Source: Methanoregula sp. (lineage in GTDB: Archaea > Halobacteriota > Methanomicrobia > Methanomicrobiales > Methanospirillaceae). From it: 34,245 bases of DNA. The position numbers and the translations under genes were made by a program. The stretch covers positions 1-34,245 of the forward strand of contig NZ_JAQTQD010000025.1 in assembly GCF_028712425.1 (NCBI RefSeq), given 5' to 3'. Positions 26,454 to 33,888 of the stretch are shown here, piece by piece; positions within the stretch are counted from its first letter, which is position 1; every line of letters starts with the position of its first letter. The notes under the pieces are model-generated. The model had not been told where the DNA came from. It saw only the letters and a list, made by a program, of their open reading frames with translations, and did no database searches.

Positions 26454-28469
26454 TTATGCAGAAAGCCGATATATGGAAGTAGTTCCTTCTGAATAGATCT
26501 TTGTTAATCCGGATGCCGGAAGGGAGACACTGTATCGTTCATATTCGGAACTCCCGACATAGAGAAGGGTGGCATTGTATTTTTTCATGAGCGGGATGGT
26601 CAGTTCCGGCTGTTCATAGATATCCCGGACATCGTCTTTTCGTTCAGAGAACCAGCCGCTCGTATCTCCCCTCCACATGTATTCATGGAATGGCTGGCCG
26701 ATGATTGCCGGAATTCCCGTGAACGAGGACACCCGTGAGTAGTACGAATAGTCCCCGTTTTCTGCTTCCACAAGGATCTCACCTTCGGGAAGCGTGCGGA
26801 GATAAGCAACCGCACCGGCATCTCCCGGGTGCGAAGCGGAGAGATACTCAAGTCCGTCAAGAGTGTTGGTACCGTATCCGGAATTGTAGGAAACCATGAA
26901 CGGCGCAGCAAAGAGGAAAAGAACGATCCCGAGGATTGCTGCTGTCGTGATCCGGTCTGAAAAAACCGGGATGCGTCCCCATCTCCCCAGCCACTGCCCG
27001 ACCATGACCAGTGCAGCGGTACCGAGCATCAGCCATGCGGGAAGATAACACTTGAAGACCGTGTTCATGCGGAAGAAGGTCTCCCCCATGTTGTCCTTCA
27101 TGTATACGAGTTCGCAGATCACGAGAATGGCCAGACCGAATGCCGCAAGAAGATCGGGAAAATCCCGGTCGGCTTTTGCTACAAGATAAACGAGGGGGAT
27201 GATGGCAATCGCTGCAGCGATGTACCCGGCAAGGGCGAAAGGCAGGCAGGCAATGAGGAGCCACGGCCGTTTCCGGAACTCCGGGACAAGCAGCGCGATA
27301 AAGATGGCAATGAAGATGCCATTCACCCAGAGGAACTCGACCGGATCTGATGGTGTCCTGACAAATGCAATCGCCCCGGTCTGTGTCTGCAGCTGGAGAT
27401 AGAAGGGAAGGTAACAAAGAATCGAGATGGGGGGCACGGTAAAGAGGAATGCCCAGGTGTCTTTTCCCAACGATGCCCGGTTTCTCCAGATGAGGAGAAA
27501 TGCGATAATCAGCACAAGGGGTGCATAGATGAGAACATCCCAGGTGTTGAAGAGCGGCATTGAACCAAGACTGAGGGAAACCAGGATCGTTACTATGGCT
27601 TTTTGAACCTTGTCCAGGGACTCCCAGTTCCGGTAAACAAAAAGGAGGAGCAGGATAAGGAAGAGCTGGTTGAAGATCGAGACAACATGGGCATGGACAT
27701 CACCCCAGACAAATGAGAAGAGGGGATACTCGTTGATGGTATTGGTGATGGTCCGGGTTCCCAGCCAGGAGAGTGATGCATCATAGGCCGGATTCACCGC
27801 TGATCCGGTGATGAGCTGGTAGACAAGTGCCGGGTTGGGGAGGATGAGCACGATAAGCGGGAGCCAGCGGAAACGATCGAGTAGCAGGGTTCCTATGGCA
27901 TAAAGGCTGATCGCGGAAAGGGCGAACACGGTAGGGAGCGACAGGTTGAACGCGATCGCGGAAGAAACCCCGCTGACGATGGCAAGGCAGCCGAGCATCC
28001 AGTACCCGAGATAGTAATAGACATTGAGCGTGCCTTCGGCAAACCAGGGATCGAGCGGGGGGACAACCGGATTCAGGATAACCGATGCAAGGAAGCCGTG
28101 GTCCATGAATTTCTCGGCATAGGTGATGGTCGGGTTCACGAACCGGACATCCAGCATGATGAGGAAGGTAACGAGGAAGAGGGCCTCCCAATGCCACTGG
28201 GTTTTCAGGTCACGGATCTGGTAGTTCCGCTTGCAGAGGTGCCATGCTGCAAGGATAATGAAGGGAATAAGGGCTGTATGGATGGGGATCCGGGTGAGTC
28301 CGCAATACCAGGAAAGGATGGTAAAGACAAGAAGCGACGCAGGGAACGCAACAGGAAACGCGAAGCGGCCAAAGGTCTTTTTCAGGGATGGATACAGTGA
28401 GAGCTGCAGGAATGTAAGGACCGCAAGCCAGCTGAGTACGGCAATGATCTGCTGTTCAGGTGCCGTCAG
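26454..28469 (-). CDS. DUF2298 (YYY-type) multispanning membrane protein with no canonical start codon
   Basis: Large polytopic membrane protein of the DUF2298 family, whose members resemble glycosyltransferase-C type proteins and occur in archaeal and some bacterial surface-glycan clusters. The first ATG is at 28157 (567 aa, MLDVRFVNPTITYAEKFMDHG). The frame is open a further 117 codons upstream and encodes clear membrane helices (AVLSWLAVLTFLQLSLY; GRFAFPVAFPASLLVF) that look like the family's N-terminus. No ATG, GTG or TTG exists there. The best candidate start is CTG 28469, seven nt after GGGGGT, giving 671 aa; ATT/ATC at about 28445 are alternatives. Family motifs include VYYYLGYW, EYPLFSFVWGDVHAHV and FFRMNTVFKCYLPAW. 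It is the last gene of the glycan operon, overlapping the flippase gene by about 14 nt. Confidence 0.8.
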   Translation of the reverse strand: MTAPEQQIIAVLSWLAVLTFLQLSLYPSLKKTFGRFAFPVAFPASLLVFTILSWYCGLTRIPIHTALIPFIILAAWHLCKRNYQIRDLKTQWHWEALFLVTFLIMLDVRFVNPTITYAEKFMDHGFLASVILNPVVPPLDPWFAEGTLNVYYYLGYWMLGCLAIVSGVSSAIAFNLSLPTVFALSAISLYAIGTLLLDRFRWLPLIVLILPNPALVYQLITGSAVNPAYDASLSWLGTRTITNTINEYPLFSFVWGDVHAHVVSIFNQLFLILLLLFVYRNWESLDKVQKAIVTILVSLSLGSMPLFNTWDVLIYAPLVLIIAFLLIWRNRASLGKDTWAFLFTVPPISILCYLPFYLQLQTQTGAIAFVRTPSDPVEFLWVNGIFIAIFIALLVPEFRKRPWLLIACLPFALAGYIAAAIAIIPLVYLVAKADRDFPDLLAAFGLAILVICELVYMKDNMGETFFRMNTVFKCYLPAWLMLGTAALVMVGQWLGRWGRIPVFSDRITTAAILGIVLFLFAAPFMVSYNSGYGTNTLDGLEYLSASHPGDAGAVAYLRTLPEGEILVEAENGDYSYYSRVSSFTGIPAIIGQPFHEYMWRGDTSGWFSERKDDVRDIYEQPELTIPLMKKYNATLLYVGSSEYERYSVSLPASGLTKIYSEGTTSIYRLSA

Positions 28470-29430
28470 GTCTCTTACCCCCGTTGAACTTTGTGTTGAC
28501 TGCCTCTTTTATACTGGGAATCACCCAGTCCCCGAGATAGTAAATCGATATGATTCCCCCGGCCAGTGTCACAATGTTCTTGATCAGGTGATCGATGACC
28601 GCGATCAGGGTTGCAACCGCCGGGCTCACCCCGGCAAGACCGAATGTCAGGGCAAGGGAGAGTTCGTACGTCCCCATCCCCCCGGGTGTAAGCGGTACTG
28701 CTTTTACGAGGTTCCCGATGACCACAGCAAGCACGACAACAGCAAAAGGTATCTGCTGTTCAAACATCATGACAACCGCATAACAGACGAGGATGTCGAG
28801 GAGCCAGATGAGAATGGATGAAGATCCGAGCATCACGATAGAACGGAGGGTGAGCGAGGCCCGTTTGATCTCGTGGAGCATGTTGAGGATGATGGCAATG
28901 TACTGATTCCCGGAAGTGAACCTGCCGACAACGACCAGGAATCCAAAGAACGCAATCCCGGCAACAAGCGGGACGATGATGAGTGTCAGGAACCAGGATG
29001 GTGCGTTGATGACAAAGAAGACCGAGATAGCCCCAAGCAGCGCAACGGTGAAAATATCAAAGACTCTTTCCACGACAATCGACGATACGCCTTCAGAATA
29101 GGTGGTGTTATATTCGTGCTTCAGGATGAAGACACGGACAAAGTCACCGAGCCTTGCAGGCACGACAAGGTTGACCGTCTGGCTGACAAAGATGCATGCC
29201 ATGGAAACGGTCATCTTCACGGAGTAATTCAGGCCGGCAAGGATTTTCCGGTACCTCCACCCGCGAAGGACCCATGCCATGAGGCAGATAGCAATTCCGA
29301 TGAGGAGGAACGCCGGAACAATGTGCTGAAACGCAACAAGGAGATCATCCCACACACTGTACAGCATGTACCCGATGATACCTGCGGCAAACAGTGTCGG
29401 GATTACGATGGCGCTAATCTTTCGATACAT
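28456..29430 (-). CDS. Flippase-like / lysylphosphatidylglycerol synthase TM-family protein
   Basis: 324-residue integral membrane protein with about eight helices. The sequence words VVPARLGDFVRVFIL and VKAVPLTPGGMGTYELSL are typical of the LPG_synthase_TM (UPF0104/AglD-tail-like) family, thought to move or anchor lipid-linked intermediates. ATG 29430 lies inside the end of the glycosyltransferase gene (17-nt overlap). It ends in the soluble tail KFNGGKRPDGT, whose codons overlap the presumed start region of the DUF2298 gene. Confidence 0.88.
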   Translation of the reverse strand: MYRKISAIVIPTLFAAGIIGYMLYSVWDDLLVAFQHIVPAFLLIGIAICLMAWVLRGWRYRKILAGLNYSVKMTVSMACIFVSQTVNLVVPARLGDFVRVFILKHEYNTTYSEGVSSIVVERVFDIFTVALLGAISVFFVINAPSWFLTLIIVPLVAGIAFFGFLVVVGRFTSGNQYIAIILNMLHEIKRASLTLRSIVMLGSSSILIWLLDILVCYAVVMMFEQQIPFAVVVLAVVIGNLVKAVPLTPGGMGTYELSLALTFGLAGVSPAVATLIAVIDHLIKNIVTLAGGIISIYYLGDWVIPSIKEAVNTKFNGGKRPDGT

Positions 29431-30130
29431 GGATCTGCCACCATAACCGGAGGATTGATCTGCCCATCGTGAAGATATCCTTTGCCTTCACGGTTGTCCC
29501 TTTTCCCGCCCTCCAGCGGACTGCGAATTCCTTAACGCGACAGCCCTTCCGCTGGCCCCTGACAAGGAGCTCTGTGTCCCAGAACCAGTGGGTGTCACGG
29601 ACGGTGGAAAGGATGGGAAGAATTCGCTCGCGGTTGAATGCCTTGAACCCGCACTGGTGGTCGAATACCGTGCTGGACAAGAACAACCGCACGAGAAAAT
29701 TATAGGAGCGGCTCGCGATCTCCCGGCCGCCTGTCCGGATAATGTCACTGTCCGGCATGAGTCGCGAACCTGTTGCCATGTCATACCCATCACGGATCGC
29801 CCCGATAAGTTCCGGGAGGTGCTGCATATCCGTTGCAAGATCGACATCGAAATAACAGACAATCGATCCTCTGGCTTCCTGTATCGCACGGTTGAGTGCC
29901 TTGCCACGGCCTTGCCGGGCATCGCTGTGGAGGAGGCGGACCCGCGGGTCTGTCCTGCCAAACTCTTCAACAATGGCAGCGCTCCCATCTGAGCTCCCGT
30001 CTTCAGCAACAAGGATCTCAAATGACGGGGATATGCCGGAGAGGATCCTGATGGAAACGGGAAGTGCCCTCTCAAGGGAATCCCGGTCGTTGTAGACCGG
30101 GATGATGGCGGTCACTTCAGGTGCTGCCAT
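29414..30130 (-). CDS. Family 2 glycosyltransferase, dolichyl-phosphate sugar synthase-like
   Basis: 238-residue GT-A fold enzyme. It has the N-terminal TAIIPVYND, AEDGSSDGS, GRGKALNRAI, the metal-binding DVD at about residues 95-97 (YFDVDLATD), and FDHQCGFKAFNRE plus HWFWDTELL, as in DPM1/ALG5-type transferases that load sugars on dolichyl or polyprenyl phosphate. There is no membrane helix. ATG 30130 has AGGAG 8 nt upstream and overlaps the end of the oxidoreductase gene by 14 nt. Confidence 0.92.
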   Translation of the reverse strand: MAAPEVTAIIPVYNDRDSLERALPVSIRILSGISPSFEILVAEDGSSDGSAAIVEEFGRTDPRVRLLHSDARQGRGKALNRAIQEARGSIVCYFDVDLATDMQHLPELIGAIRDGYDMATGSRLMPDSDIIRTGGREIASRSYNFLVRLFLSSTVFDHQCGFKAFNRERILPILSTVRDTHWFWDTELLVRGQRKGCRVKEFAVRWRAGKGTTVKAKDIFTMGRSILRLWWQIHVSKD

Positions 30131-31352
30131 GGATCTTTCTCCTGATGCATTCGGCAACCTCCAGACCTGCCCGTACTGATCCCTCCATGCTCCGTTCGGG
30201 ATAATTCGTTTTGGAGAACATTCCTGCCATGAAGAGCCCGTCCTGCTCGTATGCCGGCAGGAGGTTCCGGTACCCCACTGTATAGACAGGCCCAGCCCAC
30301 GGGTCGACAGCCATCCGGTGCCAGTGGATCTCGCGTTCGGGGACAGCAAATCTCCTGCAGAAGTCTGCGATCATCCGTTCATCGAGCTGGTGGGGGACTG
30401 TCCCGGAGAAATAGGAGGCAAGATAAACGATGTGCTCGCCGTAGCGTTCCTGTGGAATAAAGTTTGTATGCGACACAACGGCGCCATACGGTGCCGATTC
30501 TTTCATGTTGAGCCAGTATATTCCTTCCGTTACCTGGCGATCCAGGGCAAGGGTCATGCAGGCTGCTCCCTGGTAAGGGATATGCGGGAGAGCCGGCCCA
30601 CCCATCCGCTCCAGTTCGTGCGGGGGGATTGTGGAGATGACCGCATCGAAATGCATCCCGTTAAGGATCCATCCGTTCCCCTGTTTTTCAAGGGATGTGG
30701 CAGGAACCTGCTTCTGGATCCGTCCGCCTTTTGCTGTTATCGATGATTCGAGCGCGGAGATTACCTGATGGAATCCTCCATTCAGGTAACCCAGTCTCTC
30801 CCCGGAAACGCCGCGGTTCGACCGGATGGCGATTCGGCTGATGAGCCATGCTGCCGAGACCTCGCTTCTCCTGTCGCCGAATTTACTTTTCAGCAGGGGT
30901 TCGAAGAATGATGCATAGACATTGGAGCCCAGGTTCTCGATGATATACTGCTCTGCAGGGATGGCGTCGAGTCCGGCAAGATCGATCTTTTTTGCCTTAA
31001 CCGTGAGCCAGGCCAGTTTTGCCTTATCGGGGAGGGTAAGTTCAGGGTAGGCGAGGATCTGCCCGGGTGTGTTGAGCGGAAAAATCCGACCCCTTGCATA
31101 ATACCCGGTTGTCCCGGTGATCCATTCCAGCTTCCCGGAAAGGCCCAGCCGTTCCAGGAGCGAGAACAATGCAGTATCGGTGGCGAAGCAGTGATGATAG
31201 TACCGCTCGATCCAGTAATCTTTCATGTTGTAGGAAGAGAGACATCCCCCAAGATAGGGCAGTCTCTCAAAAAGATGGATCTCGTGTTCGCTGGAAAGAG
31301 CGTCCGCTGCAACAAGGCCGGTCAATCCACCCCCGATAATGCTGATCTTCAT
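30117..31352 (-). CDS. FAD-dependent oxidoreductase, protoporphyrinogen oxidase/amine oxidase-like
   Basis: 411-residue flavoprotein whose N-terminal dinucleotide-binding motif is IIGGGLTGLVAADAL (GGGLTG at 7-12), followed by the flavin-contacting HLFERLPYLGGCLSS. The C-terminal region GLFMAGMFSKTNYPERSMEGSVRAG is the second FAD contact. Relatives occur beside glycosyltransferases and flippases in surface-polysaccharide clusters, where their reaction is mostly unassigned; haem synthesis is unlikely from this context. ATG 31352 was chosen because the FAD motif begins there; a TTG lies three codons upstream. First gene of the operon. Confidence 0.87.
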   Translation of the reverse strand: MKISIIGGGLTGLVAADALSSEHEIHLFERLPYLGGCLSSYNMKDYWIERYYHHCFATDTALFSLLERLGLSGKLEWITGTTGYYARGRIFPLNTPGQILAYPELTLPDKAKLAWLTVKAKKIDLAGLDAIPAEQYIIENLGSNVYASFFEPLLKSKFGDRRSEVSAAWLISRIAIRSNRGVSGERLGYLNGGFHQVISALESSITAKGGRIQKQVPATSLEKQGNGWILNGMHFDAVISTIPPHELERMGGPALPHIPYQGAACMTLALDRQVTEGIYWLNMKESAPYGAVVSHTNFIPQERYGEHIVYLASYFSGTVPHQLDERMIADFCRRFAVPEREIHWHRMAVDPWAGPVYTVGYRNLLPAYEQDGLFMAGMFSKTNYPERSMEGSVRAGLEVAECIRRKIHGST

Positions 31353-31544
31353 GGCTGACAATCTATAGTACTTTTGGGGCCGAAATGAAAAAGGCTCCGG
31401 AAAAAGCGCCGGATTTGCCGGAATTACCTCGTAATCTCATAACAAAGTTTTTGAACTGCCGAAATAAAAGGTTCATATCAGCAAAAGGACTTAAAAGAAT
31501 TAAAAGAAATTATTATCTGTTAGCCCATTGGATGGTGTCACCGG

Positions 31545-32723
31545 ATGCGGGTATTTTTCATAGGATTTGGCCAGGCGGGCGGCAAAATTGTCGATATGTT
31601 CATCGATCAGGACAGGAAGCTCGGTACAAACAGTTTTCGAGGAATTGCCGTCAATACCGCACGAACGGACCTGATGGGATTGAAAAATATTGAACTGAGG
31701 GACCGGATCCTGATTGGCCAGACGATGGTCAAGGGTCATGGAGTAGGCACCGACAACGTGACCGGGGCCCGGGTTACTGCAGACGAGATCGACAGCATCA
31801 TCAGCGCCATCGACAGCCGGGGCACACATGACGTTGATGCCTTTGTCATCGTTGCAGGACTGGGAGGAGGGACGGGTTCCGGGGGTTCCCCGGTACTGGC
31901 ACGCCACCTCAAGCGGATCTACCGCGAACCGGTGTATGCTCTGGGTATCATTCCGGCACCGGAAGAAGGGAGGCTTTACTCCTATAATGCTGCAAGAAGC
32001 CTGACAACCCTCGTGAATGAAGCGGACAATACCTTCATTTTCGATAACAGCGCCTGGAAAAACGAGGGCGAGAGTGTCAAGACCGCGTTCCAACGCCTGA
32101 ACAACGAGGTTGTAAGAAGGTTCGGTGTTCTCTTCCGCGCCGGAGAAGTCGGCAGGATGGGCGTTGGCGAGATGGTCGTTGATTCCAGCGAGATCATCAA
32201 TACCCTCCGTGGCGGGGGTATCACCTCTGTCGGTTATGCGATAAGCGAGGTGCAGAGCAAGGCCACCAAGGAGAGGAAGGGACTTCTCGGGGGCTTAAAA
32301 GACAAGTTCGCGGCAAAGAGGGAAGCAAACGAGGAGGTTCTGCTAGGTGAAGACAGGTCTGCTAAGATCGTTGCCCTGGTCCGGCGGGCAATGCTTGGAC
32401 GGCTGACTCTCCCCTGCGATTACTCCACTGCCGAGCGGGCGCTGGTTCTCCTTGCCGGCCCACCGGATGAGATGGACAGAAAGGGCGTGGAGAAAGCGAA
32501 GAGCTGGGTTGAAGAGAATATTGCCGGTGTCGAAGTGCGTGGCGGCGACTACCCGGTCAACAGCGAGTACGTTGCCGCCGTTGTTATGCTGGCAACCGTT
32601 GGCAATGCGCCCAGGATCAAGGAACTCCTTGATATTGCCAAAGAAACAAAAGAAGATGTTATAAAGTCAAAGGAGAAAAAAACGAGTATGTTTGAAGAAG
32701 GGATTGATCCCTTGTTCGAGTGA
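31545..32723 (+). CDS. cetZ: CetZ-type tubulin/FtsZ superfamily GTPase
   Basis: 392-residue cytoskeletal GTPase. The N-terminal FFIGFGQAGGKIVDMF and the tubulin signature GGGTGSG (about residues 107-113), followed by GIIPAPEEGRLYSYNAARSL, are more like archaeal CetZ than FtsZ. CetZ proteins control cell shape in haloarchaea. After the GTPase domain there is a charged lysine-rich stretch (KDKFAAKREANEE), a second domain, a linker, and a short acidic C-terminal tail (MFEEGIDPLFE) reminiscent of partner-binding tails. TATA-like ACTTAAAAG lies about 55 nt upstream. It ends 8 nt before a membrane-anchored protein gene. Confidence 0.9.
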   Translation: MRVFFIGFGQAGGKIVDMFIDQDRKLGTNSFRGIAVNTARTDLMGLKNIELRDRILIGQTMVKGHGVGTDNVTGARVTADEIDSIISAIDSRGTHDVDAFVIVAGLGGGTGSGGSPVLARHLKRIYREPVYALGIIPAPEEGRLYSYNAARSLTTLVNEADNTFIFDNSAWKNEGESVKTAFQRLNNEVVRRFGVLFRAGEVGRMGVGEMVVDSSEIINTLRGGGITSVGYAISEVQSKATKERKGLLGGLKDKFAAKREANEEVLLGEDRSAKIVALVRRAMLGRLTLPCDYSTAERALVLLAGPPDEMDRKGVEKAKSWVEENIAGVEVRGGDYPVNSEYVAAVVMLATVGNAPRIKELLDIAKETKEDVIKSKEKKTSMFEEGIDPLFE

Positions 32724-32731
32724 GGTTGAAG

Positions 32732-33868
32732 ATGAAGGTAACAAAAATTATTATCCTTGCAGTTGTTGCTCTGTTTTTTTGCATTCCCACGGTATCGGCA
32801 TTCTCGATTGAAGGAATGACGATCGAACCATCCGGTTCGCTTACGCCCGGTACAACAGTCACGGCTTCCTTTAAGATTATTTTTTCAGCATCATCAAGTC
32901 TGACTTTCCCTGAAGGCAGCGACCTTGTGCTGTCTACGGATCTAAAGGATCCGACGTGGAGTTATACTATCCTTTTAAACGATGTGGAAAATCCCCGTAA
33001 CCCGGTCGGGGGCAAGACGCTTGAATTGAGCGGCTTTGAACTGTCCTATCCTTCCGATGTGAGTGAGGTTCTCCGCGTCACCCTCAAGGGGACTGCCCCG
33101 AGTGTTGACGCCACTTCGGAAAAGACTATCCTCAATGTAAAGGAAGTGGACTCGAACGGGAATACCGTGGCAAGTTCCGTTGTCACCAAGACTGCCCTAG
33201 TCATCCACACGGGGGATGTATCAAAGCAGGTCTCGGAGAAGAACACCAACCTGCAGGCACTCCAGGCACAGATCGATGAGAAGAGTGCCATGGGCGTTGA
33301 CACCTCCTCCGCCGAGGCATACTTTAACGATGCACAGTCCAAGATCTCAACGGCATCGTCCCGGCCTGCAACGCAATATACCGAGGCAATGGCAGACCTG
33401 ACCTCAGCCCAGACATCGATTGATGCAGGGAACACTGCGGTCGAGCTTGCGTGGGCTGAGATGGAAGTTGCCACTGCGCAGGTCCCGATCGACCGGGTAG
33501 ACAGTGTGATTGGCTGGTTCAAGGGCAACCAGAGCACGGCAAGCGATGCGCAGTTATCAGCCATTGTTGCAAAGCGCGAGTCGGCAGTAACGTTTCTCTC
33601 AAATGCGAATGATGCCATCAACAGCGGAAACTACCAGCAGGCCCGAACCAAGGCTGCTGAAGCATTCGCCAAAGGAAATGAGTCCTATACCGATGCCCTG
33701 GTACGCCAGAAACAATTGTCATCCGGGTTCCAGCTCCCCAACATTCTGCCGAGTAATATCAAATTACCGGGCGGAATATTCCTCATCATCGGCATCATTG
33801 TCGTCGTCCTCGTTATTGTCGGGGTAGTCATCTACCGCAGGCGCTCCAGCTGGGATGAACTCGGTTAA
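32732..33868 (+). CDS. Secreted/membrane-anchored protein with helical repeats, paired with cetZ
   Basis: 378 residues from ATG 32732, with GAGGT 7 nt upstream. A signal peptide (KVTKIIILAVVALFFCIPTVSA) is followed by a beta-rich domain of about 120 residues. Two long helical stretches come next (KNTNLQALQAQIDEKSAMG...; DAQSKISTASS) with spaced small residues that suggest repeats of a helical hairpin (coiled-coil-like). A C-terminal TM helix (GGIFLIIGIIVVVLVIVGVVIY) ends in the short cytoplasmic tail RRRSSWDELG. The family is unrecognised. It lies 8 nt after cetZ, so it is co-transcribed. Confidence 0.85.
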   Translation: MKVTKIIILAVVALFFCIPTVSAFSIEGMTIEPSGSLTPGTTVTASFKIIFSASSSLTFPEGSDLVLSTDLKDPTWSYTILLNDVENPRNPVGGKTLELSGFELSYPSDVSEVLRVTLKGTAPSVDATSEKTILNVKEVDSNGNTVASSVVTKTALVIHTGDVSKQVSEKNTNLQALQAQIDEKSAMGVDTSSAEAYFNDAQSKISTASSRPATQYTEAMADLTSAQTSIDAGNTAVELAWAEMEVATAQVPIDRVDSVIGWFKGNQSTASDAQLSAIVAKRESAVTFLSNANDAINSGNYQQARTKAAEAFAKGNESYTDALVRQKQLSSGFQLPNILPSNIKLPGGIFLIIGIIVVVLVIVGVVIYRRRSSWDELG

Positions 33869-33882
33869 TTGTCGATACCTTC

Positions 33883-33888
33883 TTTTTT
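33883..33888 (+). terminator. T6 tract after the cetZ operon
   Basis: CTTCTTTTTTCAAC follows the stop codon by 14 nt; an archaeal oligo-T terminator. Confidence 0.45.

Follow-up and report, generated by a model that had tools for sequence, protein, structure and literature searches.

ZipA is a bacterial transmembrane anchor for FtsZ that combines an N-terminal transmembrane (TM) helix with a large FtsZ-binding domain in the cytoplasm. In archaea, FtsZ is anchored by SepF, a small cytoplasmic membrane-binding protein (PMC8178401). For the CetZ proteins, which are abundant in extracellular vesicles, the literature searched says only that they are envelope-associated (PMC10927574). The main text of Brown and Duggin (2023; PMC9856176) names no membrane partner of CetZ. 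As far as that text goes, haloarchaeal cetZ1 has nolA upstream and cofC and pur genes around it, a Halobacteria-like CetZ group is described in Methanomicrobiales and Archaeoglobales, and outside Halobacteria only non-Halobacteria-like cetZ genes were analysed. Text searches among papers readable without a subscription returned none on a CetZ membrane anchor, on HVO_2203 or on HVO_2205.

Here we describe a candidate for such a partner. In a 34,245-nucleotide stretch of Methanoregula sp. DNA (the window), cetZ is followed by a gene for a membrane protein, hereafter called the partner. This protein resembles ZipA in being single-pass and in its proposed role of connecting a tubulin homologue with the membrane, but its cytoplasmic part comprises only about 10 residues and its large domain lies outside. 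Like SepF, it would hold a polymer of the tubulin superfamily at the membrane; unlike SepF, it crosses the membrane as a type-I protein and has almost its entire mass outside. It has an N-terminal beta domain in common with archaeal surface proteins that carry Ig/CnaB-like domains and PGF-CTERM ends. However, those proteins lack its helical bundle plus WDELG tail, and the partner lacks a sorting motif. We found no description of the partner family in the searchable literature, and it is possible that the family was listed earlier as an uncharacterised arCOG.

The cetZ locus of Methanoregula

The features of the locus are as follows.

30117..31361, minus strand: divergent neighbour of the FAD amine-oxidoreductase family, adjoining cetZ upstream
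31545..32723, plus strand: cetZ, encoding a CetZ tubulin-like GTPase of 392 aa, Halobacteria-like (CetZ1-like) group (Pfam, PDB matches)
32688..32720, plus strand: CetZ C-terminal tail MFEEGIDPLFE, consensus [IVL][DE]PLF(E) (CetZ alignments)
32724..32731, plus strand: intergenic gap of 8 nt (sequence)
32732..33868, plus strand: partner, a CetZ-linked type-I membrane protein of 378 aa from an unannotated family (ORF, conservation, AF2)
32732..32797, plus strand: predicted signal peptide, about residues 1-22, ending at MKVTKIIILAVVALFFCIPTVS before AF or one residue later (sequence, hydropathy)
32801..33202, plus strand: predicted extracytoplasmic beta sandwich, residues 24-157, with generic Ig/CnaB-like resemblance (AF2, fold search)
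33209..33727, plus strand: predicted extracytoplasmic helical bundle, residues 160-332 (AF2)
33773..33835, plus strand: predicted single TM helix, about residues 348-368 (hydropathy, AF2)
33836..33865, plus strand: predicted cytoplasmic tail RRRSSWDELG-COOH, with WDELG nearly invariant (alignments, DNA pattern)
33880..33888, plus strand: T-rich tract just past the partner stop (sequence)

The cetZ product matches the Pfam domain CetZ_C (PF21011) at E=3.7e-73, with 245 bits against a curated cut-off of 21.6, and the Tubulin/FtsZ GTPase domain (PF00091) at E=6.6e-30. The tubulin signature GGGTGSG, invariant across the CetZ alignment, is present as GLGGGTGSGG. Among PDB sequences, the best solved relative is 4b46 (E=1e-122, 413 bits), which we take to be Haloferax volcanii CetZ1, a protein of cell shape and motility; 3zid is far weaker (E=1.5e-19, 74 bits). 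Because 4b46 is closest and 3zid far behind, we place the window CetZ in the Halobacteria-like group, together with the Haloferax protein. On the basis of these pairwise bit scores, haloarchaeal CetZ1 is its nearer relative and the deep non-halobacterial CetZ proteins are the more distant ones.

A second CetZ in the same genome (contig C42, about 89825-91300), which is non-Halobacteria-like, is interrupted: its GTPase frame stops at an in-frame TAA, after which a second CetZ-matching frame follows. In relatives, the counterpart is a single long frame. The interruption may reflect a split gene, decay or an assembly error.

The cetZ stop lies at 32723 and the partner ATG at 32732; starting instead from the GTG at 32720 would make the partner gene overlap the stop of cetZ. 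Upstream, the 183-nt intergenic region between cetZ and the divergent oxidoreductase gene leaves room for a cetZ promoter, and downstream the T-rich tract is, judging by its composition, possibly an archaeal terminator. One relative has a partner at 95% identity, and there a divergent gene lies on one side of the pair and a convergent gene downstream of it, which points to a two-gene unit. Given the short gap and these flanking orientations, cetZ and the partner gene are very likely co-transcribed as a two-gene transcript. The divergent genes at 28456-31361 (minus strand) encode an LPG_synthase_TM-family flippase-like protein, a family 2 glycosyltransferase and the FAD amine oxidoreductase, and together they look like an envelope glycolipid cluster.

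The topology and fold of the partner are predicted. The AF2 model, built with 69 sequences, has a pLDDT of 91.2 and a disordered linker between the helical bundle and the TM helix. This helix spans residues 348-372 in the model, with a KD peak at residues 349-367. At the other end of the protein, A23 is kept in more than 90% of relatives. Because basic residues follow the TM helix, the partner fits an N-out, C-in membrane protein. An earlier note on this DNA had likewise read a gene 8 nt downstream of cetZ as encoding a protein with a signal peptide, a large extracytoplasmic beta/helical region, a single C-terminal TM helix and a short cytoplasmic tail; the open reading frames, hydropathy and AF2 model bear out both the coordinates and this topology.

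The window protein has all the elements by which we define the partner family, namely a signal peptide, a beta sandwich, a helical segment, one TM helix and a C-in tail of the form [WYF]D[EKR]L(G). No match above noise was obtained for it in Pfam (where the SepF domain PF04472 was also sought), NCBIfam or PDB sequences. A fold search returned generic beta-sandwich matches only, the best for the beta sandwich having a Z of 8.8 and an rmsd of 3.6 over 119 aligned residues, a generic resemblance to pilin or adhesin domains.

Conservation of the pair and of the WDELG tail

Among 150 Methanomicrobiales genomes, the partner is found in 140 (108 of the 109 good ones) and CetZ in 148, and the assemblies without a partner match mostly lack a Halobacteria-like CetZ as well. 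Across the genera of the order, 81 distinct cetZ-partner pairs are adjacent on the same strand, with gaps that are usually 2-14 nt and, with a single exception, lie between -4 and +27 nt. In a second, named set of 80 loci, which overlaps in species with the first, the pair is adjacent at 68 (gap -4 to +19 nt). The other 12 are accounted for by eight loci at or near a contig end, three extra Methanocalculus cetZ copies and one Methanocorpusculaceae MAG. By both counts, the pairing remarked on in the earlier note is clearly conserved across the Methanomicrobiales and not peculiar to one strain. Methanocalculus carries two Halobacteria-like cetZ copies, both with the PLFE tail, and the partner follows only one of them.

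Conservation within the partner is concentrated at its extreme C-terminus. The members of the 69-sequence alignment share 30-73% identity with the protein of the window, and P123 and W374-D-E-L-G378 are its sole columns without any variation. Over the ectodomain, identity falls to about 22-35%, and in the segment before the TM helix the major residue accounts for 27% on average. WDELG-COOH is present in all 69 aligned partners and in 77 of the 81 distinct pairs, and its mean column entropy is 0.00, compared with 1.5-2.1 in every other segment. Six Leu codons and four Gly codons are in use in the tail while the residues themselves are invariant, which indicates selection at the protein level.

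A DNA pattern encoding WDELG followed by a stop has exactly one match per genome in 133 of the 150 Methanomicrobiales genomes, and wherever coordinates were compared this match is where the partner gene ends. With the pattern reversed as a control, 2 of the 150 have matches. Four genomes without a match carry the tail variants YDELF, YDELG or WDELA. These comparisons support the view that the cytoplasmic tail is the most conserved part of the partner, which is what a docking motif in the cytoplasm would lead one to expect.

Homologues beyond the Methanomicrobiales

A phylum-wide search with a partner profile, together with a CetZ search, yielded further homologues. We refer to one family (f9) as Archaeoglobi-like and to the families whose CetZ is most like 4b46 as Haloarchaea; both are inferred labels. 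Homology with the partner was recovered by hhalign for the Archaeoglobi-like (E 2e-41), haloarchaeal (E 2e-20) and other-lineage proteins (E 1.5e-25), each at 99-100%. Many Archaeoglobi-like partners lie directly after CetZ and end in WDELK, WDELR or FDELR. In five genomes of this family cetZ and the partner gene are far apart, and the partner still ends in WDEL[KR] or FDELK.

In 19 of 26 haloarchaeal genomes, the best CetZ (CetZ1) is followed by a shorter homologue (about 250-270 aa), which often starts inside the end of cetZ. The haloarchaeal tail is less strictly kept, being YDKLG at 13 of 29 loci; the rest are mostly variants, and PSRLR, PSQPF and TEDKL also occur. In one lineage group the tail is KRG[IV]Y. 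One Haloferax genome, whose CetZ1 is 99% identical to 4b46, carries a partner-type gene directly downstream. The earlier note had presented the pair as belonging to a non-haloarchaeal methanogen; it is indeed present there, but it is not confined to such organisms.

With the haloarchaeal profile, presence of the partner is all-or-none (E<1e-81 or nothing). By this measure it was undetected in all 13 genomes with CetZ1 of one haloarchaeal family (f21) and in all 8 with CetZ1 of one haloarchaeal genus (g67), and thus CetZ1 can work without it. In one genome of the latter genus, cofC lies directly after cetZ1 and the partner is absent, which suggests that the partner gene was lost from between them. 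A different arrangement is found in a genome of family f12 (G178), where a protein with a partner-like ectodomain and a TM segment has no CetZ nearby and ends in PPRSKL. The occurrence of the partner beside cetZ1 in Haloferax places it in a genetically tractable genus, for which the partner-less haloarchaea form a natural comparison set.

A possible link between CetZ and the envelope

Three observations point to a function shared with CetZ: the adjacency of the two genes, the conservation of the partner in Archaeoglobi-like genomes where they are unlinked, and the specificity of the tail. Moreover, the conserved element is cytoplasmic, lies at the free C-terminus and is part of a stretch of only about 10 residues, all of which fits a docking motif. 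The explanation we favor, and consider somewhat probable, is that cetZ and the partner gene form one functional unit in which the partner spans the envelope. The beta sandwich and helical bundle would face the envelope, and the cytoplasmic tail would carry at its end a motif dedicated to docking (WDELG, WDEL[KR] in Archaeoglobi-like genomes and usually YDKLG in Haloarchaea). Most likely, this tail would keep CetZ at the inner membrane face, either directly or by way of a CetZ-bound adaptor, and the tubulin-like polymer would thereby be coupled to the S-layer or envelope. Direct docking of the tail to CetZ would be the simplest reading. We likewise infer an envelope ligand for the partner and a role in cell shape. 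Counting against this explanation are the haloarchaeal clades that have CetZ1 alone, the more variable haloarchaeal tails and the partner-like protein of family f12 that has no CetZ nearby.

Because the partner lies beside cetZ in many archaea and combines a large outer part with a tiny, near-unchanging inner tail, it is the best available candidate for tying the CetZ skeleton to the cell envelope. The chances are about even for the broader proposal that these proteins are an undescribed family of transmembrane anchors or receptors for CetZ1-type tubulins, found in a large part of Halobacteriota, a Haloferax among them, and linking cytoskeleton to envelope through a short C-terminal motif. If true, there would be a transmembrane link from an archaeal tubulin polymer to the cell exterior, and the candidate is specific, widely conserved and equipped with a five-residue motif to mutate.

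Alternatively, the partner might be an envelope sensor rather than an anchor, with an ectodomain that senses envelope state and a tail that regulates either CetZ assembly or a different cytoplasmic protein with an effect on shape or motility. A large ectodomain of two domains, one of them a helical bundle in the AF2 model, a short and highly specific tail, and clades in which CetZ1 works alone would all suit such a role. However, with no signalling domain and only some 10 cytoplasmic residues, a signal would have to pass by clustering or through a bound adaptor, and we regard this alternative as unlikely.

It also seems doubtful that the two proteins serve the same pathway without contact, with SepF or some other adaptor keeping CetZ at the membrane via the [DE]PLF tail of CetZ, and WDELG binding something else. 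The CetZ tail GI[DE]PLF resembles the GID motif through which archaeal FtsZ binds SepF (PMC8178401), and by this analogy it could bind SepF, which is encoded elsewhere in this genome. The tail is also kept where the partner is missing: CetZ1 of partner-less haloarchaea still ends in DELEPLF or DELESLF, and the Methanocalculus copies without a partner retain IDPLFE or VDPLFE. The CetZ tail thus has at least one other reason for its conservation. Against this alternative, the literature searched yielded no interaction between SepF and CetZ, the linkage of the WDELG protein is with CetZ rather than with sepF, and the G of GID is missing from the CetZ tails of Haloarchaea and of Archaeoglobi-like genomes.

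The persistence of the PLF tail weakens the earlier suggestion that CetZ binds the partner through its own C-terminus, and tail-to-tail binding is not supported. The earlier reading of the pair as a link to the envelope is supported in part, by the breadth of the pairing, the topology and the conserved cytoplasmic tail. A read-through CetZ-partner chain, modelled by AF2 from loci with the partner in frame and the cetZ stop read as Gly (alignment of 20 rows), had a pLDDT of 68.8, a pTM of 0.34 and a tail pLDDT of about 35, and its CetZ part was also poor; at such low confidence the model carries no usable information on contact.

That the partner is an archaeosortase-type or ordinary secreted surface protein merely sharing an operon with cetZ is very improbable. 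Four other secreted proteins of the genome (contigs C39, C32, C9 and C12) share its beta domain and look like surface proteins, two of them with PGF-like, archaeosortase-type ends and none ending in WDELG. However, no curated C-terminal sorting model of NCBIfam matches the partner, its conservation lies after the TM helix and not in the segment before it, and the linkage to cetZ and the tail persist across lineages. Adjacency by chance is ruled out in practice by its recurrence in the Methanomicrobiales genera examined and in several lineages beyond them.

Comparison of the CetZ and partner tails across clades gave no consistent pattern of charge-swap coupling. Among CetZ residues that change when the W of the tail shifts to Y, K274R is the one clean recurrence, and two Y-type Methanoregulaceae and 17 haloarchaea have it; as a conservative change in a single column, it may serve as a lead and not as evidence. 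The one correlated change belongs to a single lineage, the haloarchaeal genus g106, where both tails are altered together, with CetZ ending in YGD[ND]E[QE] instead of [DE]PLF and the partner in PSRL[RK].
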